Positions 360-59,800 of a stretch of DNA of 64,000 nucleotides are shown piece by piece. The stretch is from Macrocystis pyrifera (Eukaryota; Sar; Phaeophyceae; Laminariales; Laminariaceae). The notes under the pieces were generated by a model. The model ran no database searches. It was not told the DNA's origin and was given only the letters and a program-made list of their open reading frames with translations. A program made the translations under genes and the position numbers. How positions within the stretch are numbered: position 1 is the stretch's first letter; each line of letters opens with the position of its first letter. Location of the stretch: contig JASSKH010000010.1 in assembly GCA_031763025.1 (NCBI GenBank), positions 4,149,901-4,213,900 on the forward strand. The letters are read 5' to 3'.

Positions 360-473
360 TTACTATTACGGGGGTCCATAGTTAACAGGACCTATGGTGT
401 ACATAAAAAACTACTATATATTTTCCTATTTTTACTAACAAAATTTGGTCCCGTTAACTATGGACCCCTGTAA
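360..473. mobile_element. MITE-A copy 1 (TA-flanked, Stowaway/Tc1-mariner type)
   Basis: A 114-bp element with roughly 26-bp terminal inverted repeats that begin TTACGGGGGTCCATAG and end with its complement. It is flanked by TA on both sides. The matching place in the second segment copy (near 6,512) reads GCGGGTACAAG without the element, so the insertion duplicated just TA. The left edge has an extra TTACTA before the usual terminus, perhaps a scar of an earlier insertion. There is no coding capacity. Confidence 0.85.
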
Positions 474-1091
474 TACAAGTATTCTAGTCTAGCAGTATTT
501 CGTCAGTTGGTAGTGTTCGTACTGCTGCTTCTGCGAGACTCAGTACTCGCAGCAGTAATGAAATACCCTCAATATGCCCAGTATACTTCGAGTACGAGTA
601 TGATGTATACTTCAACCGTCTGTGCACCGCGTCGACAGTTCTCAGGCCCAGCGTTCGGTACTGCTCACACTCTCATTACTCTCAGCATTTGGGCCTTCTC
701 AGTGCTGGCAATATTTTTGCCGCCAGTATACTCCAATACTCTCAGTGCTCGGACTACGATTTGTTCTCGAGCATTTATCTGTGAAACCTTGGTGTTACCC
801 TGAGGACCAAAAAACTATTTTGGGGGAACATGTAATGTATATTGTACCAGTATGTATGTGCTGTACCTTACTCAACCGGTCACAAAGTACTATGGTGCAA
901 CCTCGACCTCGCGCAACTTTTTTGTACTTACGAATTAATCGCCACGAGTCAGCTGGATCAATATATCCACTTACCGCTACCCTATTTTATACCTGGTATT
1001 ATTGTAGTAAAAGATCCCACACTAATTCCGTGAACTGTATACCTGGTAATAGTCTGTCCTCAAAAATAGGTTTGTGTGTGTTCTTCACGTT

Positions 1092-2153: not shown

Positions 2154-2692
2154 GGCCTTTATATATAGACACAAAAGACGAGCCCTATAATAATATAATA
2201 ATAGTAGACCAGCAAAAGTGTGGGCGTGATGGGCGTGGTGTGGGCGTGGGATTGAGCGCTTCCTTTCACTATTATTGTTAACATGATAAGATGAAAAATA
2301 ACGACCGGCCCATTTCTGAGGTTGTTGCCTCTGGTCTCTGGTCTCTGACTTGGCAGAAACAAAAAAAAAGGTCGTCAGTGGTTCCTTCCTGTTGTCTGCT
2401 TGCACTGACTGTTTGTAGTGCAGAGAGCAGAAAACAGCAGTAGTGACGAGTATAATGTGTAATAAAACCTTGCTGTTGATAAGATACTGGTATACATTGC
2501 ACACTTAAATTACGAACGATAAACTATTCTGAATGCTGCCTGATAGTCGTATGATATTGAATGAAGCCTGTCCCGTGACCACGGTACATGATTTTTTTCG
2601 AGGAGTTATATCAGTGTGAGAATAGCAATACAGTAATACGTAGCAGGTACATGGTATACAATACCGCCGTGGTACCTGGTACCAGTCTACAC
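2154..2692. other. Non-coding stretch
   Basis: I see no gene here. It contains a TACCTGGTA word at 2,673 and no recognised repeat beyond that. Confidence 0.5.
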
Positions 2693-2694
2693 TA

Positions 2695-2799
2695 TTACGG
2701 GGGACCATAGTTAATAGGACTAAATATTGTTAGTAAGCATAGGGAAATATATAGGGTTTGGTGTGTACCGTAGGTCCTATTTACTATGGTCCTCCGTAA
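2695..2799. mobile_element. MITE-A copy 2
   Basis: Same family as 360-473: TTACGGGGGACCATAG at the left, its inverted copy at the right, TA on both flanks. Its right edge abuts the TIR element at 2,807. The repeat that element made on insertion includes the last bases of the MITE, so the MITE was there first. Confidence 0.8.
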
Positions 2800-2806
2800 T
2801 ACTGTA

Positions 2807-3564: not shown

Positions 3565-3574
3565 AATACTGCTG

Positions 3575-3684
3575 TTACGGAGGACCATAGTAAATAGGAC
3601 CTACGGTACACACCAAAAAAATTGCTTGGATATTTCCCTATTTTTACCAACAATATTTGGTCCTATTTACTATGGTCCTCCGAA
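3575..3684. mobile_element. MITE-A copy 3
   Basis: Third member of the MITE-A family (TTACGGAGGACCATAG and inverted partner). It lies about 10 bp right of the 758-bp TIR element, so that element is bracketed by two MITE-A copies. Confidence 0.75.
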
Positions 3685-3814
3685 ATACGAGCATTGAGCG
3701 CTTAGTGTCGACCACTACCAAGCCCAGCCCCGCTGACACCGGCCGCTGAACGAAAAAAGACAACTACCGAGACAAGAATGGACATAAACCATTGGCTTCT
3801 CAAAATCGTTTTTT

Positions 3815-8095: not shown

Positions 8096-10413
8096 ATATC
8101 GTGCCGGTTCAGCAGCAGGGTCATACGAGTACCCATTCGTGCATACCAACTACCAACGAACTAGCTGTTAGATATGACAAGATGAAAAGATCTTGTGGAT
8201 AAAGATCGAGCAATTTTTAAAGGTGCAACTGCATCTGATTATTCTGCCAGCGAGTTCTTGTTTTGACCCCGGAGTCCCCCTTAGTCAGTCCCCATCTGGG
8301 CTGCTGACAGCGAGCAGCACTCGAGTCGCTTGCCCTCAGCTGGTGGAATCGATCAGCGACTCCGCGCTTGGGGGCGAAGGCGCTTGAGGTTGCTACATAG
8401 AGTACCAGGTATCAGCAACATCAGCAACAGTAGCAGCACGTATATTGCGCGCAGGAATGGACTCGCAAAAAATATGTGACTCATGATGACTCATGATACA
8501 AGTCCCGGGGAGATTTCGTGCACTCGAGCAGCTGGGCATCGTGGCTGCTACGAGGCTTCAATAATGTCCGGTCTTTTTTTTGCGACGAAGTCGTCGCTGG
8601 CCTGTGCAGCAGGGATGCGCATGCTGCAGCTTTCGTGCTCATTGGTGTCTGCTGTCGACCCTTCTGCGTCCCAAGCCGGTTCTGTTTGTATAGCTTTCGA
8701 GCAGAAAAAAGGGGCGAGGAATCTGCATCAACCCAGAACAATGTCCCAGTTCAACCACGGTGCACCAACAAGGCACACCGCACGCCGACTTCCACGGCTG
8801 CCGGGGACAGACAATGCTGCAGCGAAACAAAGCTTGCTGTAGTCTCGTTCGGCTAGCCCTACACATCAGTCGTAGCTCAACATTCAAGCCAATGAGAGAG
8901 AGCGATCAGTGCATCTTGCAAAGCAAAGCACGCCAGCAAGGGAGAGCATCTGCCCTCCCAGCTAACCTCAAAAGCTCGGCGAGCCCGATCGAACGCAGGC
9001 GAGTTGGTTCAAAAATGTTCACGTGGCGTGAGTCATAAAAAAACAAGAGAAAAAAGTTACGCTTTAGTTGGAGCTCTGACCTTCCGTCACCCTGCTTTGC
9101 GGCTGTTGGCTTCCACTCCCCAAGGGAGACCTTGATTCGTCGTCCATCTTTTCTCAGGCGAGTTGCTGGCCGTGGTGTGCGTGTGTTAAGCAGAGGTGTT
9201 GCAAACCAACCTATATCTTGTACGAAAACCCAACACAAAACACACAACAAAGAAAAGGAAAACCACAAGTCCCTACAAAATAACGCCTGCGAAGTCTATA
9301 AAGCCACTTTTTTTATTGTGATCGAGTAGTATGTACGAAAATGTAAGTAGCGTTTAATTTTAATATAATAATTTAAACGTTATTTAAATTTACGGACAGA
9401 GTGGTATATATGATACCTGTGGTGCAGGTTGGATACAGGATGAGGATACCCTGCATATTCGGCTTCCCAGACTGCCCCTGCCGATGCTCTTTCTTCTCCC
9501 CTTCTTGCCTAAAGCGGACACCATTCCATGTTCTCGATCGTGGCCAGGCATTTGGCAACCCACATTACCGCTGCAGAGGAGCGATGCCGCTCTCTCGAGC
9601 AGGTAACGTTGTCGATGAAAAAGGCAATCGTGGTCAGCAGCCAGGCCGACAGCACCACTGCCGCTCGATGGTGGTGGCAAGAGGTGCGTACGTAACATGC
9701 GTAAGAGCATGCAGCAGGGGAGGCGCACCTCTCTTCACCACGACCCCTTTCCTTACTCGCTCTCGCTCGCTCCTGTGAGCTGTGCTTTTGTGTACTGTAT
9801 TCGGTACGTGTCTTCTCCTAGGTACACCTCTGAAGCTCAAATTCTTGAATTCTTCGACTGCCTATCCTATGATAAGATTGCTCCATCGATATTTTGATTT
9901 TTTGAATTTTGAACTTACAGCAGTAGCTGTGCCACGCCCACATGTACGGCGGCACGAGTACAGCGGTACTCACTTTTACGTAACAGGTACGGCTGGGTAC
10001 CAGTATGATACCTGGTACCTGGTATGCATTTCGAGAAGTCAGAACTCGTCGCATCTATGATACGCTCTTCAATAATACTATTAATAGTACAGCAGTACAG
10101 GACACCTGCAGTCTGCAGTACGTATTATAATAAGCAAGAAACACAGTACGTACCAGGTACCTGGCACAGAGTACTATTAATAGTACTTGGTAATGAGGCG
10201 CGACCTCAGTAATTCGAGCAGTAATGTCTGCGATGCATCATGCATCATGCTGGGCGAATACGGATTATAATAATTTTCTGTTTTGTGCTGAATCAACACG
10301 AACGAACATGTACTATTGATACCTACTACCTATATTATACGCCGTCGTTGGTGAATCTCAATATCGTAAATGTTATTGTTCTCAAGAACCAGGGTTCTGA
10401 CACTATTTGACCT
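8096..10413. other. Non-coding stretch, partly low-repeat
   Basis: 8.2-9.3 kb is less repetitive than its surroundings, but the frames there (up to about 120 aa, both strands) show no domain or clear codon pattern. From 9.9 kb the TACCWGGTA and TATTAATA words become dense (10,009, 10,016, 10,078, 10,151, 10,172). Confidence 0.45.
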
Positions 10414-14697: not shown

Positions 14698-16619
14698 ATT
14701 ATAGTAAGAAAGCCAACTTGAGATTGAGAGTAAAACAAGAAATTCGAGATTCGTTACATTGAAATCGGTTCAGCCCGTGGGCCAGCTTTCCTTTTTCTTA
14801 TTAGGTACCTGTTATTATACCAGGCAGGTATCCTGTACTGGTGTACCGTCAAGAGTTCTCTACATACGTGTTCCCTATTGAGACGCACACCCGTTTATTT
14901 TGCAGGCGGGTTGACAGCCAGCATCGCTCGTCTTTCGTTGGTGGGCATCTTCCTGGCGCTTCCCAAATGCCGGTAATAGGGGTTGGCCCTGGTAGCTCCA
15001 GCCACAATTCAGCAGTGTGCACTGGCTGCGTCGTATGTCAATATACTGGACCCGAACAGCAGTGCACTGGTCGCGGCTAACCCGCGAACTCGCGACCCCC
15101 GCCCCCCCTCGGCTGGTAAGGGGGGGCCGTCGGAGGCGCCTCCGCTGGAGGCGCCCTGTCGGAGGGGTGTTTTTACGTGTTTTGTTCTCACTAGAGCAAA
15201 AAAATACGTTGATTGCGGGCCATGTTTCAAAGGGAATTTGGCCGTAGACTGACCAAGGAACAGTGAGGAAACGCGGACGAAGTACGTGTGGTGGTACAGG
15301 AGTGTGCAGACTAACTATGATACTGCACATTATGAAGCACGCTGCCTGGGTAATGCGAGGCTGGAACAAAGTAGGTGTTCTCGTACTCTAGAATCAGGTT
15401 CGGAAGTGCGTGATACCGAATCGCGGCCCCAGAGTGATACATTTTTTGTTCGAAAATGAACATTTTACACAGATTTCCAAAAAAGAAAAAAAGGGCTCGA
15501 AGTTATCGTTCGAGATTCCTTGAGCTGAATACTACAATGTCGTCCCCTTTTAGAACTGCAGTCCCGTTTTGGGGACAAATCAGTCAAAATCAAGGCCCCA
15601 GGGGCGCCGTCAGGATTCACATAGCCCACGCCATCTGTGGTCGCGGCGGCTTGGTCCATCGCGTTCAGCGTCTCCTCCGTCTTTTCGTCTCTGCCCCTCT
15701 CGCTGTTGTGCGTGCCCTACTGGCTCTTCGCCATACATTTCGATGGGTTTCAGCCAGGTCATTCGGCTTTAGATGGTAAATAGTCAAAATACTGGCAACC
15801 CTGGCACCTTCCTCAGCCAGTGCAGTGATACTGGCGGTACATGCTTGACCAGGGCCCAGCCCTAACGAATACTGTATTACGTACGTAGTACGTAGGTAGC
15901 CCATTCCGTCCTTGATCCCATACAATCAAATATGTCAGGAGGCATGTCAAGCACGGGAAAACGTGCGCTGTCAAGGGTCCAGAGCTGAATGTTTCACACT
16001 AAAACTTACCGCAGTAGTTTGATGTCAGCCAGGGAAGATGAAGGCAGACTGTCCAGGGAGTGTGCTGTCTCCTGACGGCTTTGCCTACCGGTACAGCGGT
16101 TAGTGCAGTGGTGGAAATGCGCAGAGCGCCTGCATGTTGGTCCGAATATATGTCCCATACGTATCCCTTCTCGGTTCCAATTGATTGGCCGCGCTTTTGC
16201 ACTTCTTCCATTGTTGTGGTTTCTACGAAGAGTTTGCACACGACGGACTGATCACGAGCGAGATAACCTGAATCCTAGCTTACGTGCCTGCCGCTTTGAG
16301 ATGCCTTTCAGGACTTGTTTTTCCGTGACGTGTGCTACGACAAAATTAGCAGCTTGTGGCCAGTTTTTTATATTGTGCTTTTTTTTACTGGCTGGACCCC
16401 TTAACCCAATATTGGTGGTAACCAATTTTGTTGGAATACCATCGGCTTTTGACATTATTCTTCGTGATGCATGCCCATGCACGGGTTGTATGCTTTTTCG
16501 TCGGGCTGAACTTTTCATCTTTTTCTCTGATTCAATGTCAGGGTGGGGTGTAGGGCTCGGAGCCTCCTGAAGTTGTAGGGTGCAACCCTATCGTGGCTTG
16601 CGTCTTTAAGTTCAGATCC
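14698..16619. other. Non-coding stretch with repeats
   Basis: No gene is supported. It includes a GC palindrome (GGAGGCGCCTCC near 15,134), half of MITE-B (about 15,547-15,600) and dispersed repeat E copy 2 (15,930-16,080) with its TACCGCAGTA word at 16,007-16,016. Confidence 0.5.
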
Positions 16620-21480: not shown

Positions 21481-22009
21481 TTTGAAGTCAAGTATAGTTA
21501 AGCGATATTGTCGAAATGAAGCCAAGGTTTTAAACAGCCCTGTAACGTACGGAAACGTACTTAGCGCCCAAAATGTTGGAGGTGTCCCTGCTAAGAATAG
21601 GAACGATGCTGCCCCTTCTCGAAAGGGCGTGGTCAATTGTCAAATGACTAAAGCAAGCGACTAATGAGTACCCCCCCCCCCCCCCCCCCCCCCTATTATA
21701 TATAGGTTGGGTTGGCGTCGGTTGGCAACGACACTGTAAAACATGCCGCTCACTACGTGAGCTAGACAACCAGGGTACCGTTTTTTTTTTTTTTTTTTTT
21801 TTTTTTGGCAGTCGCCCACAGCTGGTCGTCGAGTTAGATCAATTGTGCGAGGTAAAAGAACCTTTACTTTGCAGAAGAGAATTGATCGTATCACGTAGTG
21901 TTCAAGGTAAGGCACCCAAGAGGCAGTTACATAGTACTCCCATTGCTGTCTCTGGAAGTGGCTACACCGGAAATTTAACTAACTCATTGAAGCTGTCATC
22001 CATATGCAA

Positions 22010-22220: not shown

Positions 22221-22292
<72 letters not shown>

Positions 22293-33486: not shown

Positions 33487-33825
33487 GTGCGAAGCTGTCG
33501 AGCCTCGGCTATCGCTGGAATCAGCTCCCAAGCATCCCTTTCGAGGCGGAGCGTCGTTCCTACTCCGAGTCGGGGGGGGGGGGGGGATCTAAAACGGCGG
33601 CTGCATACGTTCTTCTTTGTCTGCATTTACTCTGCGCCCTTACGTCCACCGTTCAGCACATGTGTTGGGTTAGTGACAGCACAGGACATGTAGAGTCGCA
33701 CTAAAAAAGACAGGGTGAGTTCGACCGGAAAAAAAACAAATTTGGCAGCCGCTACGCTGAAATTGGTGTAGGAAGCATATTTTTCCATAAATATTTAATC
33801 CGACCCGAGCCTGCAGTTTTGTGTC
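33487..33825. other. Non-coding stretch before the LTR element
   Basis: It contains a G run (33,573-33,586) and nothing recognisable. Confidence 0.4.
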
Positions 33826-34057
33826 TGTAGCCAAAAGATACCAAGCCGTGGAGGTTTCAGTGTAATCGCATGTGTGAGTGGAGCAGTGGCCGGGGATCCT
33901 GTGTGATGTCCCCTAGCCACCTGGCTCGTGGTCCGATGAGGATCACTCCGTGATAATACAAGCTCTAAGAACAAGACTTACTGAGTGCGAGGCCAGCGAG
34001 ACTGGTGGAGTCCCTCGCTGGAAGCCCTCTTGCTGATATCATCTGGCAGAGGCCATA
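33826..34057 (+). repeat. 5' LTR
   Basis: Starts TGTAGCCAAAAGATACCAAG and ends GGCAGAGGCCATA. Identical to the 3' LTR at 39,353-39,584. The exact edges are ambiguous by one or two bases because flanking bases coincide. Confidence 0.88.
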
Positions 34058-34264
34058 ATATCTAGATATTCGCGGAACTTCTGTTGGAGGAGTTTTCGGC
34101 TGCGGAGTATTGGGTCACAGCTGGGAAGGCAGTTGGCCCGTTGGACGGATCGAAACGGCTTGAAGCGCACAGCAGGGGAGGACGCTCCGGGAGCTGGAGG
34201 ACGCACAGGTCAGGCGGCAGTTTCTCCGTTATTACAGTAGAGTCCAGGTGGACTGCTGTGGATT

Positions 34265-37200
34265 ATGGCGCACACGGCAAGCACGCCGCTGGTGGTAGGG
34301 GAGTCTCTGACTCCACCGAAATACGGAGAGGTGTGGACCGAGCAGGCCTCTCGTGTTTTTTACGCAGCGTACCTCGATTATGAGGAACGGCTGCAGCTCG
34401 CCAACGCTCAGGGGGTGGTTCAGCACTCCAAAGTGAGCATGGGCCAGCTTATCCCCAATTACATTCATCGGTGTTTTGAGGGATTTTACAAGCATCAGAC
34501 TACGATGACCGCCTCGGAGTTGTTGGACGCTGTTAGGCAGCACGCTGGTTACACAACCACCAGCAACAGATTTGACACCTCGCGGGCGGCAGCGGACTTG
34601 CGTCGCGTTCTCTCAATGAGGCGCGATGAAAAGCAGGGCGGTGAAACATCCGTCAAAGACCGCGCGATGATGGTAAACTCCGCTATGGAAAAGTATTTTG
34701 CGGAGAATCACGCGGTGCATGCCATGTACCGCGCGCAGGACCGTTCGTGGTTGCCCGGACCGGCGGAATTTGTGAGCATGGCGTTGGTGGATGGCTTATG
34801 GCCGTCCGAGTTCAAAAAGTACGTAAAAGGTCAGCTAACGTACGCTGCAGGGTGGAAGAAGGACCCGGCATTGGTCATGGACCAAATTTTTTCTGCTGCA
34901 GAACAGTGGAAATTCATCGAGGCGTATGGTCGGAAAGATGCTGCAGGGGCAGCTGAACCGCGACGCCAACAGCAGCAGAAACCGAAACAGCAGCAGTCCG
35001 CGAAAAAGTCGTTTGTTCGCGTCTGTTTCGAGTGTGGTGATCCCAACCATTATGTTTCTGATTGCCCAAAAGCTCGCGGTGGCGGCACAGCTCCCAGCAG
35101 TGGTGGGCGCGGGTCGTCAGGGTATCGCGGGGGCCGCAATGGCGGCCGGGGCAGATTCAACCATGGACGCGGGCGCGGTGGCCGTGGTGGCAATCAATTG
35201 ACAGCGGGCGGTGGAACTTCTGCTGTTGCTTCTTCAACTTCTGGTGCGCCAGCGGCAGGAGCCGCTGGGTCGGGATCTGGTTCGTCTGTTGCCGGCCGAG
35301 CTGTATACGTTGGAGGAGCTGGAACATCGGTGGGTGCTGCTGGAGCGAGAACTTCGCCATCCACCGAGCGGGCGGAGTCAGTGTCTGGTGCTGCTGCAGG
35401 GGCGGTAGCGCCGGAACCGTCTGTATATTCGACGTCTTGGTCGGGGTGGACCGCCGATTCTATTTCTTCGGCGCCGGCTGTAGGAGGGCAGCCATGGCGT
35501 CAGGTGACTCTTGGTACCGACCAGAGTTCAACGGCAGGTGAAGTGCCTGTCGATCGCAGCGCTGAGTGTTTACGCGCTGATCTCTCTTTGCCAGGGTCGG
35601 TTGGTTCGCTGATGGCGCGTGTGATCCTTGATTCGGGGTCGGCGCTCACGTCCATCGGTGTCGGCTTACTTCAGCAGCTGTCTTCGCATTTCGGCGGCGC
35701 CGATCTGCAAATTCCGTTCGAAAATGGCCCGCAGCAGGCGAAAACCGCTACGGGTGTTTCAGTGATGGTCACGCACAAAACGGTGCCGATTGCCGTGAGT
35801 GTACGGACGCCGTGGGGAGCGGTGAAATTGGAGCCCATCACTTTCGCGGTCATGCCTGGTACAGATAACGTCGTTCTGTTTGGCATGGCTACCATGAAAG
35901 CTCTTGGCATCGACGTCTACCGTGAAGCTCTGGAGAAGCTTCGCCCTCGCGCAGTGCCGGTATCGACCGGTGTGGAGACTCCGAGTTACCTTGCGGCGCG
36001 CAGAGTGACGGTTTCCGTGCGTGCTTTTCAGACCGAGGCTACGGTGGATGCTCCGGAGGACAAGGCGGTGGAACATTTGGTCGACCGGGGGCCAGACATG
36101 TTCATGGATCCGGAGGAGGAGCGGACGGCCCGAGAACGGGCGTTGGAGGACAGCGTGCAGCAGGCAGAGCAGAGTGGATTAAGCGTCGGCGGAGCAACCC
36201 GTTTGCGCGAAATTTTGGCTCGTCGCGTGGGTGCTTTTCGCCGTGCGCTGTGTGGTGATCCGCCAGCGCAAGTGGAGCCGATGCGAGTGCAGCTGAAGCA
36301 ACAGGCGAAGCCTGTCAAGGCAACGCCACGTCGGTACGAACCGACGAAAAGGGACTGGCTCTCGAAGTGCATTGCTGCTTTGGTGTTTTTTGGCTTTGTC
36401 TACCACAACATCCAGGCGGTGTGGGCGAGTCCGGCGATGGCGGTGCCCAAGAAGGACTCTTTCCGTTTGGTGAGCGACTACTCGGCGGTGAACGCACAGG
36501 TGGAGAAGTCCCCGGGCGTCATGCCCAACCATGAAGACATGGGAGATCTGCTGGGGGCGCGTTTCTTCGGCAAGCTGGACCTACTTCAAGGGTACTGGCA
36601 GATGCCTTTGGCTCCGGAGGCGCAAGACGTCTTCACCATGGCGACAAGCGACGGTTTGTTCACGCCTACCCGTGTTCCCCAAGGTGTTTTGAATGCGACT
36701 TCTTATTTCCAAGGTGTCATGACTGAAGTGTTGCGTGGTTTGGATTGCAAAGTTTGGGTCGATGACGTTTTCTTTTTCGCAGACACCGAAGAAGCTCTTC
36801 TGCAGCTGCTTGATGACATTCTTGAACGCCTGGAGAATGTTGGACTGTTTGTCGCCGCCCACAAGTGTACCTTCTTCTCTCGTGAACTGGTCTGGTGTGG
36901 TAAGGTGTATTCCAATGGTGTCGTGTCCCATGACCCCGCTCGAGTGCAAGGTTTAAGTGAAATGCGTCGTCCCGAAAACGCTGGAGAACTAATGCAATTC
37001 TTGCAGGCTGTCAACTGGTTGCGTACATCGTTACCACGTTTAGCGGAAACGGTAGCACCGTTACGTGATTTTTTGGAGGAGCTCCTTGTTGGGGCTACAC
37101 GTCGGACTAAGCGAGTGGCGCGCAATCGTGTCATCAAGGATACCGCGTGGACGGAGGATCGGGTGCGGGCGTGGAATGCCGCACGGGGTTTGGTGGCGCA

Positions 37201-39274
37201 AGCAGTGCCGCTTCATCATCCTCGTCCCGGGTGCGTTGTTTTGATGTTTCCTGACGCTTCTGATTTCCATTGGGGTAGTTTTCTCACCCAAGTGCCTGAA
37301 CACGAATTTCGCAGTGGATTGGCGTTGGAAAGCATGTCTCACGAGCCTCTCGGATTTCTGAGTGGTTCGTTCACAGGTTCGCAGTTGCGCTGGGCGACTG
37401 TCGACAAAGAAGGTTTTGCGATCGTTAATACGTTCCGGAGGCTCGAATACCTGCTTTGGGGTGGTGTTCATATCTTTACTGATCATCGAAACTTGCAGTA
37501 CATTTTCAATCCGGAGAAGTGTGTCACGACGGTCACAAAGACCATGGCACAACGCCTAGAGAATTGGAAGGGTGTTTTAGGACAATACCGCTATGCAATC
37601 GAACACATCCCTGGCGATCGAAACTGTTGGGGGGATCTGTTGTCTCGTTGGGTCAAAGTTCCTACGGTGCCTGTTCGTTCGGTTGCCGTGCACAGCCCAT
37701 GTAATGCTGACGATTCGCTTCCCGCATTGGATGTGATTCGTGCCTCGCAACAAAGGTCTGTCGCTCGTATCGGCGTTGGTGTTCATGAATTTTCGACAAC
37801 CTTCGGTCAAGCTACCTTGGCCGATGATGGTTTGTTTCGTGTGCGTGTTGGGGTGCGTGACGTCTTGTGGATTCCGCCGGATGATCTTGCTCTTCAAACT
37901 CGTTTGATGGTGTGCGCGCACATGCGCTCGGCTGGTCACCGTGGTGTGGCGCCGACTTTGTTTCGCCTGAAGGAATATTGTGTTTGGCCTCACATGGATT
38001 CTCAGGTTCGCGAATTCGTTCGCCAGTGTTTGCACTGTGTAGACACGCGTGCAGGTGCACTCATTCCTCGTCCCTACGGAGACACGGTGCATGGTACCGC
38101 TCCGGGAGAAGTGGTGCACTTTGATTTTTTGTATGTTGGCCACAGCGGGCCCGAAGGTAGCGATGGCCTGCCTGATGAGGATGGTTTCCGATATGTTTTG
38201 GTCATCATGGATGATTTGTCCAACTACGTGGCGTTGGAACCGGCCGAGGCTTGTACAGCCGAGGTCACAGCGAAGCATTTGCTAGCCTGGTGTAAGACTT
38301 TGGGGGTGCCGCGTGTGTGGGTGAGTGATACCGCCACGCATTTCAAGAACAGGGTGCTTGCTTTGTTGAGCGACGCGTTGCACATCGAACATCGTTTTGC
38401 TGTCGCTTACACGCCGTGGTCGAACGGTACGTGTGAACGCATGGTAAAAGAGGTGGTACGTGCTCTGCGTTCCATTCTGTCAGAACAGCGTCGTCAGGTT
38501 TCGGAGTGGGTTGATGTTTTGCCGGCCGCTCAGTGGGCCTTGAACACTTCGTTTCGTGAACGTTACCGAAGCACTCCGTACAGCGTGATGTTTGGGCGTG
38601 CTCCGCGTACCGATTTCTCGGCGCTCGTTTCTGAGTCTGATGGCAGGTGGAATGTTGACGTGATGAATGCTGACTTGTTGCGTGCGAACGTCCGTGAAGT
38701 CGTTGCAGAGCAGGAGAGATTTTGCGCCGATATTCGCGCAGCTGTTGCCGTGTCTCGCGACAACAAACGTAAACAGGCTCAGGGCCAGGTGGTGTTGCCA
38801 AAATTTGCGGTTGGTGATTTCGTGTTGTATGCTCGTGTTCGTCGGCAGGGTGTCACACCGAAATTGTTGTCCACATGGACTGGTCCGTGGCGTGTGGTAG
38901 CAGCTGATCATGATCATGTGTACTCAGTTCAGAACATCGTTTCTGGGAAGGTGCATCAAGCTCACGTGGCTCGTTTACGATTTTATGCGGATGCGACGTT
39001 GAACGTCACCGCTGATCTGAAGGATGTTTTCCAACATTCCTTTGCGCAGGGTGAATGCCGCATGAATGCTTTGGTGCATGTGGCCGAAGATGATGCCAAC
39101 GAGGTGATTGTCTTGGTCGATTGGGATGGTTTCGAAGCAGAGGAGCGCACGTGGGAGTCTTTGCGGTCGATTTATTCTGCTGCGCCTGAATTCGTCGTGA
39201 AGGAATTGCGCAAATTACGGATGACCCGTGCGCTCAAGATTAAAATTGCTTCAGAGTTCAGCATTGATTTGTGA
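34265..39274 (+). CDS. Gag-Pol polyprotein of the LTR element
   Basis: A single 1,669-residue frame from an ATG 208 bp after the 5' LTR. Parts in order: Gag-like N-terminus (to about residue 245); a zinc knuckle of CX2CX4HX4C type (about 253-268); a Gly/Ser/Ala-rich linker; an aspartic protease region with DSG (about 455); reverse transcriptase (about 690-900); RNase H (about 985-1,085); integrase with zinc-binding head (about 1,218-1,265) and core (about 1,280-1,445); and a chromodomain near the end (about 1,598-1,650). Gag and Pol share one frame, as in several chromoviruses. Confidence 0.9.
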   Translation: MAHTASTPLVVGESLTPPKYGEVWTEQASRVFYAAYLDYEERLQLANAQGVVQHSKVSMGQLIPNYIHRCFEGFYKHQTTMTASELLDAVRQHAGYTTTSNRFDTSRAAADLRRVLSMRRDEKQGGETSVKDRAMMVNSAMEKYFAENHAVHAMYRAQDRSWLPGPAEFVSMALVDGLWPSEFKKYVKGQLTYAAGWKKDPALVMDQIFSAAEQWKFIEAYGRKDAAGAAEPRRQQQQKPKQQQSAKKSFVRVCFECGDPNHYVSDCPKARGGGTAPSSGGRGSSGYRGGRNGGRGRFNHGRGRGGRGGNQLTAGGGTSAVASSTSGAPAAGAAGSGSGSSVAGRAVYVGGAGTSVGAAGARTSPSTERAESVSGAAAGAVAPEPSVYSTSWSGWTADSISSAPAVGGQPWRQVTLGTDQSSTAGEVPVDRSAECLRADLSLPGSVGSLMARVILDSGSALTSIGVGLLQQLSSHFGGADLQIPFENGPQQAKTATGVSVMVTHKTVPIAVSVRTPWGAVKLEPITFAVMPGTDNVVLFGMATMKALGIDVYREALEKLRPRAVPVSTGVETPSYLAARRVTVSVRAFQTEATVDAPEDKAVEHLVDRGPDMFMDPEEERTARERALEDSVQQAEQSGLSVGGATRLREILARRVGAFRRALCGDPPAQVEPMRVQLKQQAKPVKATPRRYEPTKRDWLSKCIAALVFFGFVYHNIQAVWASPAMAVPKKDSFRLVSDYSAVNAQVEKSPGVMPNHEDMGDLLGARFFGKLDLLQGYWQMPLAPEAQDVFTMATSDGLFTPTRVPQGVLNATSYFQGVMTEVLRGLDCKVWVDDVFFFADTEEALLQLLDDILERLENVGLFVAAHKCTFFSRELVWCGKVYSNGVVSHDPARVQGLSEMRRPENAGELMQFLQAVNWLRTSLPRLAETVAPLRDFLEELLVGATRRTKRVARNRVIKDTAWTEDRVRAWNAARGLVAQAVPLHHPRPGCVVLMFPDASDFHWGSFLTQVPEHEFRSGLALESMSHEPLGFLSGSFTGSQLRWATVDKEGFAIVNTFRRLEYLLWGGVHIFTDHRNLQYIFNPEKCVTTVTKTMAQRLENWKGVLGQYRYAIEHIPGDRNCWGDLLSRWVKVPTVPVRSVAVHSPCNADDSLPALDVIRASQQRSVARIGVGVHEFSTTFGQATLADDGLFRVRVGVRDVLWIPPDDLALQTRLMVCAHMRSAGHRGVAPTLFRLKEYCVWPHMDSQVREFVRQCLHCVDTRAGALIPRPYGDTVHGTAPGEVVHFDFLYVGHSGPEGSDGLPDEDGFRYVLVIMDDLSNYVALEPAEACTAEVTAKHLLAWCKTLGVPRVWVSDTATHFKNRVLALLSDALHIEHRFAVAYTPWSNGTCERMVKEVVRALRSILSEQRRQVSEWVDVLPAAQWALNTSFRERYRSTPYSVMFGRAPRTDFSALVSESDGRWNVDVMNADLLRANVREVVAEQERFCADIRAAVAVSRDNKRKQAQGQVVLPKFAVGDFVLYARVRRQGVTPKLLSTWTGPWRVVAADHDHVYSVQNIVSGKVHQAHVARLRFYADATLNVTADLKDVFQHSFAQGECRMNALVHVAEDDANEVIVLVDWDGFEAEERTWESLRSIYSAAPEFVVKELRKLRMTRALKIKIASEFSIDL

Positions 39275-39352
39275 TTTGCCGCATGCGATTTCGTCTTGGT
39301 TTTTTGGTTTTGTCAAGCTCGTTCGTGTCGAGTGAACTCGCTTTGGGGGTGC

Positions 39353-39584
39353 TGTAGCCAAAAGATACCAAGCCGTGGAGGTTTCAGTGTAATCGCATGT
39401 GTGAGTGGAGCAGTGGCCGGGGATCCTGTGTGATGTCCCCTAGCCACCTGGCTCGTGGTCCGATGAGGATCACTCCGTGATAATACAAGCTCTAAGAACA
39501 AGACTTACTGAGTGCGAGGCCAGCGAGACTGGTGGAGTCCCTCGCTGGAAGCCCTCTTGCTGATATCATCTGGCAGAGGCCATA
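39353..39584 (+). repeat. 3' LTR
   Basis: Identical to 33,826-34,057. Preceded by a short G-rich stretch (TTTGGGGGTGC), a possible polypurine tract, and followed by TGTCT, which matches the 5' flank. Confidence 0.88.
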
Positions 39585-44305: not shown

Positions 44306-44491
44306 CTCTTTCCGCGATAAAATCCAAGGTGTGTGTCATATGTATGAGTATGTAATCGGTGTATGTATGTACATATATTACACCTGGTATATGTCGTACC
44401 GGGGGGGTAGAGAAGATGCCTATAATTATTTGTATATACACCGGGCACTACCTGGTATGGTCTGATATGCAGGTACTTCACTGACTGCCTG

Positions 44492-44597
44492 TTACGGGGG
44501 ACCATTTCAAACAGGACCAAATATTGTTAGTAAAAATAGGAAAGTGCATAGGTTTTTGTTTGTACCGTAGGTCCTATTTGCTATGGTCCCCCCGAAA
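44492..44597. mobile_element. MITE-A copy 4
   Basis: TTACGGGGGACCATTTC at the left and its inverted partner ending CCCCCCGAAATA at the right; slightly diverged from the other copies. Confidence 0.7.
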
Positions 44598-46063
44598 TAG
44601 CTGTGGCCACAACGTTTTCTTGTTGCACAGAAGGTCTTCGAGAGTGTCAGAATTCACGCGAGATGAGCTGGCAAGAAACAGGGATAAACAAAACTCGAAC
44701 GAACTTAAATAATGTGGCTCTTCACCACTCTCACTCGCCTGCCCCCCCCCCCCCTCCCCCCCCCCCCGCCCGCCCCGCCCGCCGCCTTTCCCACTATATA
44801 TGCGCGGGGCCTCTTACTTCATTTGGCCGCTTGGGACAATCACAGTCTCTCTGATATACCCGCTGCAACTTACCAAGGCCCCATGCAGAATTCACGGCGG
44901 GTGCTCGCACTCCGACTGCTGGAAGTCAGGGCATGCCTGCCACCTCTCTCTGCGGATTGCATTAATACTCTCTCGTATTGTCATCTCCATCCATATTCTC
45001 GCTCTTATGTGTTGAGCGCTGCAACGTCAGTCAGAAAAACCTTGAACCTGGTGTGATAATTTGAACTTATCCATAAAACGGTATACCGAGAGTGTCTTTT
45101 GCGAAAACTCGATACAGAAAGAAAGCACTACGATACAGAAGTCAGTATCTAGTCGCAAGGCACCACCACTGCTGCTGCTGTTGTGGTCGCGATTTGGCCA
45201 CAACCTCTACAGCAGTACGTACTCAGGATTCTTTACAGCTGCAGCAGCAAGCAGATGTCTACAAATACACTTGTGGTGGGGATGCGGTTACACGTGTACG
45301 CTCTCGTGTCTAAAACCGCCGGAACGGCCGGAAGCAGATTTCGATTTTGATTTTCATTCAATTATTTTTCGATTTTCGATTTCTATTCTTCGTGATCTGT
45401 GCTATCCCGCACAAGGTACATGCCATCATCAGGACGGGGGCGCAATACAGCATCATTAAGACGTCATGCTTTACATAAGCGTCTCGTCGCGCGCCAAAAC
45501 TGGTTGACATCTGTTATAATAGCATAGAACGAGAGCCGCGGCCGAAGCACCACTGAAACCTGGGAACCAATTATGATGATGGATGTCTTTGCCGTTCGAC
45601 GTTTTCCACAGCAAACGTCTCGAGATGCGAAAAAAAAAATGGCTGCCACGTTTTGGTCGAAGCACCGGAAATCGGCGAAAACCGAAACATAGGACCGAAA
45701 AATACAAAAATACCTGAAAAATACACATTTTTGATCAATTAACATAAGGTGAGGTATCTTTTTCTTCACTGACCAATAGGAGCCCTTCATTTTGACGGTT
45801 GCGGACCCATCCCAATCACGACATGTCGACCAGGAAGCGAAATTTGCAGGGCCGGGACAGAAAACCAAAGCCACAACCCGCGCGCGAAGGCAACAAGGCA
45901 AGGCGTTCCCCTTGCAAGCCAACGGATTGGCGAGCACTGCGCGGCGAGCTGGCAACTCGCGGAGCGCTGGGGGCCAGACGGATAAGGCCGAGGAAACGCT
46001 TGGATCGGTTTCAACCCTTGGCGTGTTTGTTTGAGCTCACAAGGAAAAGCAATCTCAGTCGAA
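44598..46063. other. Upstream region of the ARC5/DRP5B-like gene
   Basis: No separate gene is supported. It includes a C-rich tract (44,743-44,790), CTG-type repeats (45,170-45,250) and the presumed promoter and 5' leader of the gene starting at 46,064. I see no convincing TATA box. Confidence 0.4.
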
Positions 46064-49300: not shown

Positions 49301-50840
49301 CATATGCTCACAATTGGACGATCTACCCACGCACACCATTTTGCTCAGGCGCGTACAATCTAATTTTCTAAAGGGGCTGGAATCTACTGCACCGTATAAC
49401 CGACACCACGGTCGGTGGTGGCCGAGCAGAAACCGATAGCTACAATATCAGTAGTATTCATAAACAATGGAAAGAGGGCGGTCTGATCGACTCGGTTAGC
49501 CTGTCGTTGATAGTGGAGGCGCGCACCTGTACATCGTATATTGCTGTCTTACAAGCCGAGTAAATATAAATAGTCGGCACTTTAGCGCAGAAGGGTATAA
49601 TATCAAGCTGCGCTTATCCCTCGTCATTGTTGCAGTTCGGACCCTGTCCTCTAAGTTTTCGCACCCTAACCCCAGCAGCGTTGGCTGAATCGTTTGGCCG
49701 ATATGCTCGGTGTGATGGTCGGCTTGTTTTTTTTTTTGTCACTTTCACCCTTCTTGGCGGCGGGAATAACCATAAAGGAGTAAGTTTTGACGTGCACGTA
49801 CGCGAGTTTAAAAAGAGTATTACGACGGACCATAGTAAATAGGACCAAATACTGTTGGTAAAAATAAGTAAATGTATAGGTTTTTGTGTCTACCGTAGGT
49901 CCTATTAACTATGGTCCCCCGCAATAGAAAACACCAATTTGAAGTGTATTACCTTGGAAAACAACTAAAAAGGTGGGCACTAAACCCAACTCTATTTCCC
50001 CATGGTTTGGTGGGCATCAAAGCAAACTACCGCTGCTGCTGCTGTGTATTACGTGAATTATTTTCTAAAGACGCGGCCTGCGGCATAGCGTAGACCTATT
50101 ACGAGGGGCCATATTAATAGTAAATAGGACCAAGTATTGTTGGTAAAAATAGAGAAATATATAGGTTTTTGCGTGTACCGTAGGTCCTACCAGGTATTCA
50201 CTATGGTCCCCCGTAATCATATGTTCGTAGCTCATGTTCAAATTATCCTTGCCGTGCCGACATGGTTGGTGGCATAAGATCCACCTTCAAACTCTACAAC
50301 GCGAGTACTTGCATTTCGGACGAACTGCTGTAACCTTGATATTTGGCGAGGTATGCTCCACCATTAAATACCTGGTAATGTAAAACCGGTACAAGGTAAC
50401 AGGTGATCAGTTTATTGGTTGTTTGTGTTGTTTTTTCATGTGCTTTTCACGTTGTTGTTTTGTGTGTTCTTCATAATTAAGTGTTCTGTTATTTTTTCAT
50501 ATTCTTGACAATAAACCGTTTTTTTTTTTTTTCGTTTTTTCTACATGTCGACATCCAGCACACCCAGTGTCCGTGCCGATTCTCGATCCCGTAGAGATTC
50601 AAGCTCTGTGGTCACAAAACTACGACACAGAGGTACTATTAATACGTTGTATTTTTTGCAGTGAGCAGGTAGCCATCGTACTCGATACGACAGGAACGAT
50701 ATACAACATGCTACTAATAGCAGTCCAGCTGCGTTGAACGAGACAAAAAACAAAGCAACAAAGAAAAAGTACGCAAGAAATAACTATAAAATAACACTAA
50801 AAATCAGACCTAAAAGGACTTTGTTGTTGTTGCTGTTTTT

Positions 50841-53800: not shown

Positions 53801-56800
53801 TTTCAAGTGGTCTGTCCCCAACGCGTGGAGGCAGTTCGGAAAGGGTTCAACCCTCGGGCCACGTGCGTTAGGTCGGTTTCATCGTGTTGCTTTGGTCGGG
53901 TCGTTTCGGTTTGGTTATTTTTTGTGTTGACTATTTTATACACGGGCGTTTCCAAGCTTGAAGCCAAGCTCAAGTTCAAGCTCAAGCAAGTTGGCAAGGT
54001 ATGATGCCGTGTATTTTGGCTACTTGGCTCCTCGTGTATACTCTTGTTCGTTATTACTTGGGCAGTCGTAAGCGCGTGGGCCTATGCTCCATTATAGAAG
54101 TTTGTAAATGTTACGATACTTGTTCTAAAGGCAAATGCCAACCATGATATAGAACTACTTACTTATATAGATATCACTATCTGATCGTGCTCGGTTGGTA
54201 CATCCCTGGCCTCTCAGAGCTCCCACTTGGAAATTGCCTCATTTTATTACTTGCCGGACCTTTCCAGCGGGTCTTTGTTTTCTCCATTTCTCTTCGCTCT
54301 TTCAGTCCTTCTTTCCTTTTTTCTTCTTTCGTTTCGTGTGCGTGCGTGTACTCCGCGCACGGTTTCGCGGGCGAACCCGGCACCGTCGCGGGTGTCAGCG
54401 GGTGCTGGCGGGTAGAGGGGGAGCTGCAAGGAGAGCGGTCGCCGCTTGCGTGCCTAGGCGTCGCGTGTGCCTCGAGACAGGAGGGATGCATCAATAGGCT
54501 CTGTCTGGCCTTCATTTGTGATTTTTGATAGAGTACGTACGACTTTTTAAGGCTCGTTCGGGATCGTAAGATAATATAGCTACTTATAGATACTGTATCT
54601 CGATCTCTGAGCGTGCTCGGTTGGTGCATCCCTGGCCTCTAAGAGCTCCCACTTAGGAATCGCCTCCTTTTATTACTTGCCGGACCTTTCCAGCGGGTCT
54701 TTTGTGTTCTCCATTTATCTTGGCACTTTCAGTCCTTCTTTCCTTTTTTTCTTGTTTCGTTTCGTGTGCGTGCGTGTACTACGAGCACGGCATCGCGGGC
54801 GAACCCGGCGCCGTCGCGGGTGTCGGCGGATGGTGGCCGGTAGAGAGGGGATTGCAAGGAGCGTGGTCGCCGGTTCCGTGGCTAAGCGTCGCGTGTGCCT
54901 CGAGACACGAGGGAAGCATAACTGGGCTCTGTCTGGCCTCCACTTGTGGTTTCTGATAGAGTATCTACGAGTTTACAAGGGTCGTTCGTGATTGCAAGAT
55001 AACGTTCAATCGGTGCTTATTTTCGCGACCGGGCTTGGAGCCCAAAGAGAGAGGTACGGATGCTGAGCACCAACAGTGTCGAGCTGGCGAACCACAGCCA
55101 CGGTGAGCACCGGGCCTCACGCGAGGCGGGCGACGGGGCTCACTGTGGCGGAGAGTGAGGGAAGCTTTGCCCGGACCGAATCGGTGGCGAGATCGTTGCG
55201 AGAGGGGCGGGCGGCGTACGAGGCTGAGAGAGAAGCTCTGCTTCTCGATTTTTTTTTTTCTTCTTCTTGACCGGTGTAGGTGTTCCAATCAGGCAGTAAA
55301 TTATTAAACGAAAGGGGCCAGAGTTTTTTTTTTTCCTTCAGATTTTTTCGGTTTCATTTTCATTGTTTTTGCTGTGCTGCTGTTCCGTGCTGTTCATCTT
55401 TCTTTTCGTACATACGAGTACAGACAGAGCATATCTAAACAAGAAAATAAATACCCTACCTAGGGTATGTACGTACGTACGACATGCGAGCGAGCGTAGC
55501 GGAAAACCGCCCGCGACGCGAAGCGTATGTGGCGTCCGAGCTGTTTTCTCCTGAATGAATGAATGAAGCAAGCATGGCGGCGGGACTCTTGGCATCATCA
55601 AGTCGCCAGTTTGCAACTACAGCAGTCATGAAAAGAACAATAATAATATTCAATCATGGACCTCCGTCCGCTTCGCATAATTTGATGTACTTTTCCTCCC
55701 TGAGCGAACGTAGCGGGCGGCGCAGGCCGCCCGCGGAGCGAAGCGCCTCGTATGATGTACCAGTACGTAGTACTGTACGTAACCATAGTCTGAGCACAAT
55801 AAACACTATCAATATCAATATTAATACCAGCACGCACGTAGCTCGTACGTCACCTACTACAGCATGCAATAGTTTTATAAGTAACTGCTGTACTCTAGTA
55901 GTATAGCGGTATTCCAGGTACCATTTGCATACTCTATAATACACGATGGTTAGCAGTTTATCAATCTGTCCCTTAATATAAAGACATTTTATCCATTACT
56001 AAAACGAAATGGTGTTTATGGTTCGGTACGTATGGGTATATGTATTACCGGTATATCATACTTTTGTGAGCACTCGAGTTGAGCCGCGATCTTTTTGGAG
56101 GTTGAAGCAAGTGTGATGACAGCAGTATGTATGATACCTTGGACCTGGATACATGTTCGTGTCTCACGTCATGATGTTACTCCAAGTGGCCTACGTAACT
56201 TGCAACCTTCGCTGTCATGGTGCTGTCACTGCTCACTGCTGCCTTTTCACACCAGGTGCTGTTTTACCGTACCCGTGATGCCTCTGTGAACGGACAGTAT
56301 ACCGATTTACCCTTCGTAAGGTTACAAATATTCCTCTACACAACAGGTACCAGGTATTATTCAAGAATGGTACTCGCGTTAGAAGTATCGCACACAGCTT
56401 CCGAATATTATCATTAAGAATAGTTGGACGAAATCCTCGATCCCACAGGCAGCTCACGCTTACGTTCGCGCCCCGAACTGTACCAGTCAGTACCTGGTAT
56501 GTTTTTGCTACTGGTCTTGACATAGATGCCTTGAAAAACGGTACAGAAGCACAATTCGACACGTACCAGGTATGTGCCAGTATGATATAACACTCGAAGT
56601 TTAGTTTTTTTGAACTATTATTTTAACTTTTAAAATCTTTGTCTACTCTGCTTACTGCGTAACAAGGTGGTATGTCTGTGGAGTAGTTTTACACATGACG
56701 TGTATCTTCTTATTTGTAGGTTCGAAGAATTGGCACGGACACTGGTTGTGCTGCATGTCGACGGACAGCAAGAACGGTTAAATGTGAAGAACACACACAC

Positions 56801-59800
56801 AAACCGTTTATTCTTGGCTTGCGGGTTCTTTGTGTGACCTCCTTTTTAGATGGCACTTTTGCACTTTTGGGTCCCCTTTTAGACGGCGCTTTTGCACTCG
56901 CACTTCGCAAAGCTTGGACAGCAGGGTTGAAGTTGTTATGTATCGCCACGAGTGCTACGTGGTCAAAATCAGCCAGTACACTGGATTGGATTGCAGCAGT
57001 ATAATGTGACGAGCTTGCTCTTTCCCGCCGAAACGCATTTGGTGGGTTTCCGCACTCAGTTACGGCGTGTTTCTTGGACGTTCGTGCTATGAAAACGACT
57101 GGCGAGTATACTAGCCAACTCAATCCGTATTACTACCGCCAGTAGATTACTACTACCAGTACATACTGCCTGTACATACTACCAGTACATACTGTGCCAC
57201 TTTCCGCCCCACGAATACCTGTCCAGTTGGGGGATTCGGTTGGTGGATCTGCACCTGCGCGCCCGTTATCACGTCATTTGGTGTCAGGTGGATGCATCGA
57301 TGGCAATGGTACGTACTCCACCTGTGAAAAACCTACCAGGTACGGAGTATGTATATATATTTTTACCTCTTCAACAGGGCCAATAAATTGAACGCGAGAG
57401 TTCGCGCTCACGGTAAACAGTGATTTTATCACCTCTGGTGTTCTATACCAGGTAATATATGTTTACGACGTACATTTTTGTTTACATGGTAGCCTACTTT
57501 TCATAGAACCCGGGACACTTCCGATGTCTACGTACTGCAGCCCCGAACCAACCCCCAGAGATATCGCGAAACGTTCAACAACCCCTCTGTTGAAGCGGCT
57601 GCTAGCAACGACTATTTTGGGGACAAATTACTTGAAACTTGTGTTTCGGATGTCCTCCGTTGTCTCGATGCAAAAACACCCATAACTCTGTTTCCGGGCA
57701 GCGTGTGGGGTCCCCAAAGGTGGATGATGCAGCCTGTTGAAGGAGGGGCCAAGAACAGCGTTCGCAAACCTGGAATAGGTCATGATCTGCCGGAGATTTG
57801 GCTGCACAACACAGTAGTGCTTCGCCTGCCCTTATCGAAGGTTCAGCAGGATTTTCACAGTACAGATCGGAAGCGGGAAACATGTGCTACATACAGCAGA
57901 GTCGTAGATGGTGCAGATTTTCACGGCGTTCACCCGGCGACATCATGAGCTACAGTAGATCATACAGACTCAGGAGTACGTTTGGCCTGAATTGAGTATG
58001 TCATGGAAGTGGAAGTCGATGATCAGTCCCAGGTGCGCGACGTTTGTTTTCTGTTGCTTGCCTGGCCGGTGAAAACCCGACGTGCCCCGTCCCGGCATTG
58101 TAGGGATACGAGGGTCTATGGTCACACGACTATGGCCATCCATGATATCGAGTACACCCCCCCCCCCCCCATCTCCTGACAATGAGTACCCCCCCCCCCC
58201 CCCCCCCCCCCATTTCCATTTCCTCCCCTTCTTGCTCCACCTCGCACCGATAAACACGACTTAACTTACGTAGTAGCTTTGCCCCGGGACCCCTTCCCCA
58301 TTCCGTGGAACCCCCCCCCTTGCAGGACTTTCACAAGCCGTTCGACTCGCCGGCTGTGCTCGTCGTGGGCCACCAGACCAGCGGCAAGTCGGCCCTCATC
58401 GAGGCACTCATGGGATTCCAGTTCAACCAGGTGCGTGCTTGCGGCATGGGGTTGGTGGGTACACCGTATCATATCGTATGTACGACGCTTGACTTGCCCT
58501 GGCTGCCGTCTGGTGAGCCAAGCAACTGACTGACTTTACTCGAGTAGTCGGCTGGTGCTATTACGGGGGTCCATAGTTAATAGGACCTGTGGTAGACATA
58601 AAAAACCTATATATTTACCTATTTTTACTGGCAAAATTTGGTCCCATTAACTATGGACCCCCGTAATAGTTATATATTTTAGACTTGGTACATGTTTGGC
58701 TTCATTTTATTTCCGAAAAACTCTGAAGATGAAATGCCAACGGCCTTCGGCACGAACACCATCGATGGCGATGGCGATGGGGTTTTTCATGCCCTATGAG
58801 TTGAGGTGGACCTCTCCCTTCCTTTCTGAGCGAGGAATACGCACTCCGTGGTAAATTAGCATTTCCTAAGCTAAGAAACCCACCTAGCTTGTAAATTTGG
58901 TCTTCCAACTACTCACAGCTCTACCTGAACCCTCTTACTACTGCTAAACCGTTTTCCTACGTACTCAAATCCCTTTTGCTGCACTGGAGTTCCTTTTGCT
59001 ACGTATTGTACGTGCAATCCCTATTGCTAGTGGACCCAAAAACCATACCAAACACATCCCTCTCATTCTTCAAAGCTTAACGGTTCTGATTTAGTTCAGG
59101 GTTCTCCGTTGCAAGATCAGTAGAACATGCCGGAAGTTATCACGTTCCTGTAATTTTCAGCCCTCCTCGCTTGTTCCCGTTTCAGTTTTCAGAGCTGTTT
59201 TTTTTTTTTTTTTTTCGCGTGCAGGGTATCCTATACTGCTGTTGTTGTGCATGTAAAATACCAGGGTACACACTTATTCCCTGTAAGAACTGATTAATCT
59301 CTACATGAGGCAAGTCGGGGTCCCAAATATTAATATTAATAGTTTGCCCCCCGTAAGTTGGGGCTGAAAATCGTACTCGTACGGCACAATATCATTTTGT
59401 ACCGTAATTCTGAAAATATTAGTGTTGCCGATAAAGAAACTACTATTAGGGGGGACCATATTAATAGTAAATAGGACCGAATTTTGTTAGTAAAAATAGG
59501 TAAATATGTAGGTTTTTATGTATACCATAGGTCCTGTTAACTATGGACCCCCGTGATAGTAATAGTCGATACTCGTACGATTTCTATACCTGATACATGG
59601 CAGCTTTCGTTTGCGATCGTAGTGCCAGTAAAAACAGCACGTTCGATACCTGGTATGTTGAAAATATATCGAAACGTTCGAGACGATATCCAACGCTGAA
59701 AAACATACCTATATACTGCTGTACCCGATCGTGTACTTGTCCGCATTTTATTTATTGGCGCAGGTTGGCGGTGGTACGAAGACTCGGCGGCCGATTGCCT

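Follow-up and report, generated by a model that had tools for sequence, protein, structure and literature searches.

The giant kelp genome appears to carry some two hundred thousand near-identical excision scars of two very short transposon families

The short words TA-TTAA-TA and TA-CCWGG-TA in the genome of Macrocystis pyrifera are very probably footprints left by the excision of two non-autonomous transposons that target TA, MITE-A and MITE-B. Counted over 537,376,219 bases (223 contigs), the genome appears to carry about two hundred thousand such scars, tiny and near-identical, from these two very short element families. The window analyzed here is a stretch of 64,000 nt (JASSKH010000010.1, positions 4,149,901-4,213,900). 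A sequence-only reading of it had proposed that a few bases enclosed by two TAs are scars of transposons with TA targets, and this proposal is now supported by matched target-site logos, a narrow word spectrum, and individual TAs that occur empty, filled and scarred. The words that it placed at 50,112 and 59,459 (TATTAATA), 50,188 (TACCAGGTA) and 1,040 (TACCTGGTA) are all present (Table 1). That two of them are insertions into a bare TA was borne out as well: the 7-bp insertion at 50,188 is missing from the MITE-A partner sequence in 79 pairwise alignments, and the insertion at 1,040 is shown by one pairwise alignment with the other segment copy. In the all-against-all insertion screen most of the signal came from MITE-A palindromes, and only single examples were taken from it.

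Table 1. Scars, source elements and related words in the window (positions in nt)
Feature	Position	Strand	Basis or remark
MITE-A copy	363..475	.	profile match
TACCTGGTA scar, segment copy 1 (copy 2 has TA)	1040..1048	.	single alignment
MITE-A copy	2692..2801	.	profile match
MITE-A copy	3573..3687	.	profile match
MITE-B copy (source family of CCWGG scars)	9332..9406	.	
Double scar TACCTGGTACCTGGTA	10009..10024	.	
TACCGCAGTA, earlier called a scar	16007..16016	.	status as recurrent word unsupported
MITE-A copy	44490..44599	.	profile match
MITE-A copy 5, scar-free	49818..49926	.	profile match
MITE-A copy 6, one scar of each kind	50096..50217	+	nhmmer match
TATTAATA scar in MITE-A copy 6 (TA to TA-TTAA-TA)	50112..50119	.	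MITE-A fills this TA at other loci
TACCAGGTA scar in MITE-A copy 6 (TA to TA-CCAGG-TA)	50188..50196	.	79 insertion-free alignments
MITE-B copy, diverged	55960..56036	.	profile match
MITE-A copy	58558..58669	.	profile match
Double scar TATTAATATTAATA	59328..59341	.	
MITE-A copy 8	59443..59558	.	profile match
TATTAATA scar in MITE-A copy 8 (TA shared with copy 6 scar)	59459..59466	.	word count, insertion list

Both words are far more frequent than base composition predicts. The window contains 26 TACCWGGTA and 18 TATTAATA, for which 0.33 and 0.55 are expected, and none of the 100 dinucleotide-preserving shuffles of the window that provided these expectations reached either count. Genome-wide there are 121,279 TACCWGGTA, 50 times the reversed-word control; TACCTGGTA accounts for 60,614 and 60,665 on the two strands, compared to 1,182 and 1,239 for its reversed word. 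The palindrome TATTAATA is found 94,130 times against 7,522 for its control (12.5-fold). A sample of 281,901 bases holds 88 TACCTGGTA on the two strands, with visibly unrelated flanks. This sample was largely retrieved around MITE-A copies, a bias from which the genome-wide counts are free, although the latter include copies made by duplication. Two sampled loci inside the window (L001, L034) were left out of most counts, and L065, a duplicate of L062, out of the later ones.

One alternative is that most scars were made once and then copied with amplified MITE-A subfamilies or other repeats, so that the counts overstate the number of excisions. We consider this unlikely as a general explanation. 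It is true that a single MITE-A site has TTAA in 252 places, and that scarred MITE-A copies lie slightly closer to one another (0.152) than to unscarred ones (0.181). However, once MITE-A and simple repeats were masked, nearly every occurrence in the remaining 259,614 bases had a context of its own, namely all 84 TACCWGGTA (2.0 expected) and 121 of the 124 TATTAATA (9.1 expected; palindrome sites counted on both strands). Moreover, the nearest neighbor was itself scarred in 7 of 24 scarred MITE-A copies, compared to 5.7 after shuffling (p=0.36), in a test that omits 29 copies retrieved by their likeness to copy 5 as well as matches shorter than 96 bp. Some scars may still share descent.

The spectrum of enclosed sequences is narrow. 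Ranked by likelihood score, CCAGG and CCTGG stand at the top among all TA-N5-TA words (84 each, 2.0 expected) and TTAA among all TA-N4-TA words (122 against 9.1). Minor words derivable from MITE-B ends include CCGG (18 against 5.9), CCAG and CTGG (21 against 9.8), CCACGG and CCGTGG (4 against 0.7), and CCATGG (2 against 0.7), and TTATAA is derivable from MITE-A ends (6 against 0.7). With a central C, TACCCGGTA is found 6,105 and 6,004 times genome-wide, a tenth of TACCTGGTA and yet 6 times its own reversed control (1,018 and 1,006); part of the word excess may therefore have other causes or represent minor repair products. Another enriched word, TACAGCAGTA, was discarded as a scar, as it resembles a CAG microsatellite.

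Words that are palindromic or nearly so, and this numerous, could in principle be functional or composition-driven motifs, such as protein-binding palindromes or methylation sites, raised by selection or mutation bias rather than inserted. This is highly improbable. The central base of CCNGG is A or T and seldom C or G (84 and 84 versus 3 and 3), the same TA is seen both empty and filled, and the flank preference of the scars equals that of an element family, as described below.

The excision reading, by contrast, identifies a source for each word. MITE-A has the ends TTACGGGGG...CCCCCGTAA and is about 110 bp long; its consensus has 111 bases (TATTACGGGGG...CCCCCGTAATA), and its outer bases within the TAs are TT and AA. 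TA-TT-AA-TA is thus best read as the footprint of MITE-A's own ends. MITE-B, discovered through recurrent sequences beginning with TACC, measures 79 bp between its TAs (83 with them) and is almost wholly an inverted repeat with ends CCACTCTGTCC...GGACAGAGTGG; TA-CCWGG-TA is best read as its footprint. Its ends occur at least 1,193 times genome-wide at up to 2 mismatches, and the reversed pattern never does. TA precedes 58 of the 60 MITE-B ends read, although the retrieval pattern itself favored TA. Both families are short, non-coding, high in copy number and bounded by terminal inverted repeats, as are MITEs of the Tc1/mariner type, and the first two or three bases at the ends of each element make up its scar word. 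For TACWGTA the sampled sequence yielded no source. Two MITE-B copies from unrelated places (L097 and L101) have one difference in 79 bases, a hint of recent movement. A 771-bp TA-flanked element (L062:2003-2773, ends CCTTTATC, also read as CCTTTATCATAGCA) was rejected as the source of CCWGG, since a genome search returned only itself and one copy of 74% identity.

More direct evidence comes from sites seen in several states. The MITE-A consensus has a bare TA at the internal site GACCA-TA-GTAAATAGGACC. With up to 2 mismatches allowed, this site bears TTAA in 252 places, of which 42 are exact, and judged by the left junction it is filled by MITE-A in 140 places (18 exact). The non-exact part of the 252 includes GTAA and CTAA variants, which may reflect tandem duplication or decay. 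Of the two filled loci read, L138 has both junctions intact, and the right end is diverged in L137. The two window TTAA scars inside MITE-A occupy a single, repeatedly used TA. For the other word, the site GGTAAATATA-TA-GGTTTTT carries CCTGG in L035 and L049 and MITE-B with both junctions in L139 and L140; the search for MITE-B at this site gave 72 places, 2 of them exact, and many of those with 3 mismatches need not be MITE-A. For both families an empty TA and a filled TA...TA thus occur at one site, which is TA target-site duplication, and the three states indicate the order TA, then element, then scar. That the scar consists of a few end bases between two TAs is inferred from these states and from the word spectrum. 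The empty site is TA, and TTAA belongs to the scar, unlike in piggyBac, which targets TTAA and leaves no trace on excision.

The same observations make slippage or small tandem duplication at TA-rich sites a hardly credible origin of the words. Some TAGTAATAGTAAATAGG variants at the MITE-A site can indeed be read as a duplication of TAGTAA. Nevertheless, CCWGG is absent beside the empty sites and cannot have been copied from there, which refutes slippage for this word; for TTAA it is refuted by the filled sites at the same TA. No TTAA or CCAGG insertion event in MITE copies is a tandem copy.

Elements and scars also share their target preference, which we compared over the six bases outside TA, using distinct 6-mers except for MITE-B (left flanks from 58 and right flanks from 31 of 60 loci). 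T, A and C adjoin the TA at MITE-A ends with frequencies of.50,.49 and.56 (127 distinct 6-mers), and at TATTAATA scars outside MITE-A with.51,.54 and.56 (n=106). TACCWGGTA scars (n=145) prefer A at -6 (.46), A at -3 (.41), and A (.46) or G (.34) at -1; the corresponding values at MITE-B ends are.44,.42, and.42 or.33 (89 flanks, redundant). The flanks of all 26,914 TAs are almost flat. Log-odds correlations reached 0.93 between MITE-A ends and TTAA scars and 0.80 between MITE-B ends and CCWGG scars, compared to -0.16 to -0.26 for the crossed pairs. A likelihood ratio derived solely from the flanks of elements had mean values of 1.79 (TTAA scars), -1.35 (CCWGG scars) and -0.35 (all TAs), and separated the two scar sets (p=5e-20). 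TACWGTA words correlate with MITE-A flanks (0.80) and with TTAA scars (0.72), and this preference is therefore not unique to one word.

A likely mechanism would account for both main words. A Tc1/mariner-like transposase acting in trans would perform cut-and-paste excision, with one strand cut at the end of the element and the opposite strand some 3 nt within it, and so leave 3' overhangs of TTA or CCA that host end joining would seal without resection. TTA overhangs could pair through the 2-nt TA and be filled in to TTAA. CCA overhangs would meet at one base, an A:A mismatch; fill-in around it and resolution to A or T would yield CCAGG or CCTGG. The CAG overhangs of Sleeping Beauty likewise pair with a mismatched middle base. 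A 5-nt self-complementary CCAGG overhang was abandoned as it no longer fits once the MITE-B ends (CCACT) are known.

The breaks might instead be made by another enzyme, pogo-like or some other TA-target or domesticated transposase, in which case the elements would not be strictly Tc1/mariner. This is possible, if clearly the less favored option. The genome gave no match to the DDE_3 profile and 39 matches to pogo-type DDE_1, several with open frames longer than 330 aa; Transposase_1, searched without a positive control, gave none. Nine DDE_1 loci (L068-L076) on different contigs are 97-99.7% alike over 2.6-3.6 kb, suggesting recent spread of a larger element or duplication, and L067 is 72% alike. 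However, when these ten loci were read with 1.5 kb on each side as candidates for the autonomous partner, none had TA-flanked inverted ends or an exact MITE-A or MITE-B end, the nearest being an unpaired sequence with 1 mismatch in 11 bases. Hence searches with DDE_3, Transposase_1 and DDE_1 found no transposase tied to either MITE, and scans of viral_contigs gave no exact matches to both ends.

Not every part of the sequence-only reading survived. Its expectation that insertions fall only at TA does not strictly hold: among 54 listed insertions of 3-14 nt in MITE copies, 11 are of the form TA-x-TA (9 of 24 among those of 5-7 nt), in counts that omit insertions of copies retrieved with the TTAA pattern. 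These 11 comprise CAG or CTG (4), TTAA (3), CCAGG (1) and others (3); the remaining insertions partly resemble alignment noise in diverged copies and are partly genuine other indels. Of its 'at least three families', two are supported, with TACWGTA as a probable third. TACAGTA and TACTGTA occur 98 times per orientation (41 expected), and MITE-A copies have acquired them at four different positions. The family proposed from CCGCAG is unsupported: at 16,007, TACCGCAGTA is backed by a single imperfect pair, and 248 kb of sequence contain two instances of the word and none of its reverse complement, which does not make it a recurrent scar. In the 282-kb sample, TACGAGTA (55 against 11 expected per orientation, at many loci) and TATCATA/TATGATA (58 against 28.5) are also enriched, and no source elements were found there for these words or for TACWGTA. 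TACGAGTA equals what we take to be the Minos footprint, and TATCATA/TATGATA presumably resembles that of Mos1; no element with the CGAG ends suggested by the Minos comparison was found in the sampled kelp sequence.

Scars are unevenly spread along the window. Positions 20,001-44,000 have 1 CCWGG and no TTAA at 821 TAs, and the rest has 25 and 18 at 2,446 TAs. The scar-poor part is GC-rich and contains the majority of the long open frames; its avoidance could be explained by selection or by insertion bias. It includes what may be a very young LTR retrotransposon, judging by two identical 233-bp direct repeats around a 1,669-aa open frame (33825-39584), without a scar inside. About 68 consecutive C occupy 22222-22289, and further long C runs lie near 21670, 44734, 58190 and 61078. 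Double scars were also observed, TACCTGGTACCTGGTA at five places in addition to TATTAATATTAATA, in the window (Table 1) and at loci L008, L014, L036 and L063. They look as if elements had re-inserted into the TA of an earlier scar.

This type of footprint is already known; what is new is the number, the uniformity, and the apparent excess over the remaining MITE-B copies. The Tc1/mariner element Sleeping Beauty leaves the footprint CAG (PMC8151067), and it resembles the kelp case in duplicating TA and leaving a few element-end bases between two TAs, with kelp TACWGTA being of the same type. Its footprints are known mainly from laboratory vertebrates, whereas the kelp words are TTAA and CCWGG and are very abundant in one wild-type genome. 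Stowaway MITEs of Triticeae also target TA, with putative footprints in which two TAs enclose 1-4 bp from the element ends (PMC1925063), and several different ones were inferred at one gene locus or site, unlike the one dominant, genome-counted word per kelp family. Rice DNA transposons are reported to leave short 3' overhangs from the element ends and to be repaired by end joining, with 8 of 94 excisions 'perfect' and the remainder having deletions and/or filler (PMC4423477); the contrast in cleanness is uneven, as the kelp count covers clean words only and no messy excisions. In the brown alga Ectocarpus, almost 12,000 Mariner-Tc1 copies, mostly MITEs, are reported in a study in which the words 'excision' and 'footprint' are absent from the main text (PMC12477816). 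The best-ranked literature matches, as far as titles and abstract openings go and with few subscription papers among them, include no description of genome-scale footprints in brown algae.

How scars compare in number to surviving elements is a rougher matter. The window together with four 10-kb stretches (L061-L064), 104 kb in all, has 11 MITE-A and 2 MITE-B copies, for which a very rough extrapolation gives 57,000 and 10,000 per genome, in a set whose element density is biased since the window was chosen for its visible MITEs. The four stretches by themselves have 3 MITE-A (all in L062), no MITE-B, 6 CCWGG and 3 TTAA scars. The 282-kb set, enriched for MITE-A surroundings, has 28 MITE-B matches, two of them halves of one copy. 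From these counts, CCWGG scars probably outnumber recognizable MITE-B copies, two- to twelvefold, while TTAA scars and MITE-A copies are, roughly, of the same order of number. The loss of words to single substitutions suggests mean scar ages of about 7% (CCWGG) and 11% (TTAA) divergence. Median divergence from consensus is 18% for recognized MITE-B copies and 8.5% for MITE-A, the latter from a set biased to one copy's relatives; all these counts and ages are rough.

A more far-reaching idea is that in giant kelp the departure of MITEs from the germline nearly keeps pace with their arrival, that the breaks are joined by near-deterministic, non-resecting end joining, and that scars thereby come to exceed elements. 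We offer it as a conjecture with rather low odds of being right in full; the transposase would perhaps be better at excision than at insertion, or a host-adopted enzyme would be purging the elements. Transposon departures are normally invisible, and if the conjecture is true, the genome is a countable record of them. Since a single word dominates in each family, one assembly reveals how many excisions took place, which targets they involved, roughly how old they are and how the breaks were repaired. The empty, filled and scarred states provide markers for dating and for population studies, and indels of 6-7 bp at TA in giant kelp should be treated with caution, as they are often transposon traces. 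Overall, the findings suggest that excision is one of the main fates of giant kelp MITEs, and that end joining often retains the end bases of the element.
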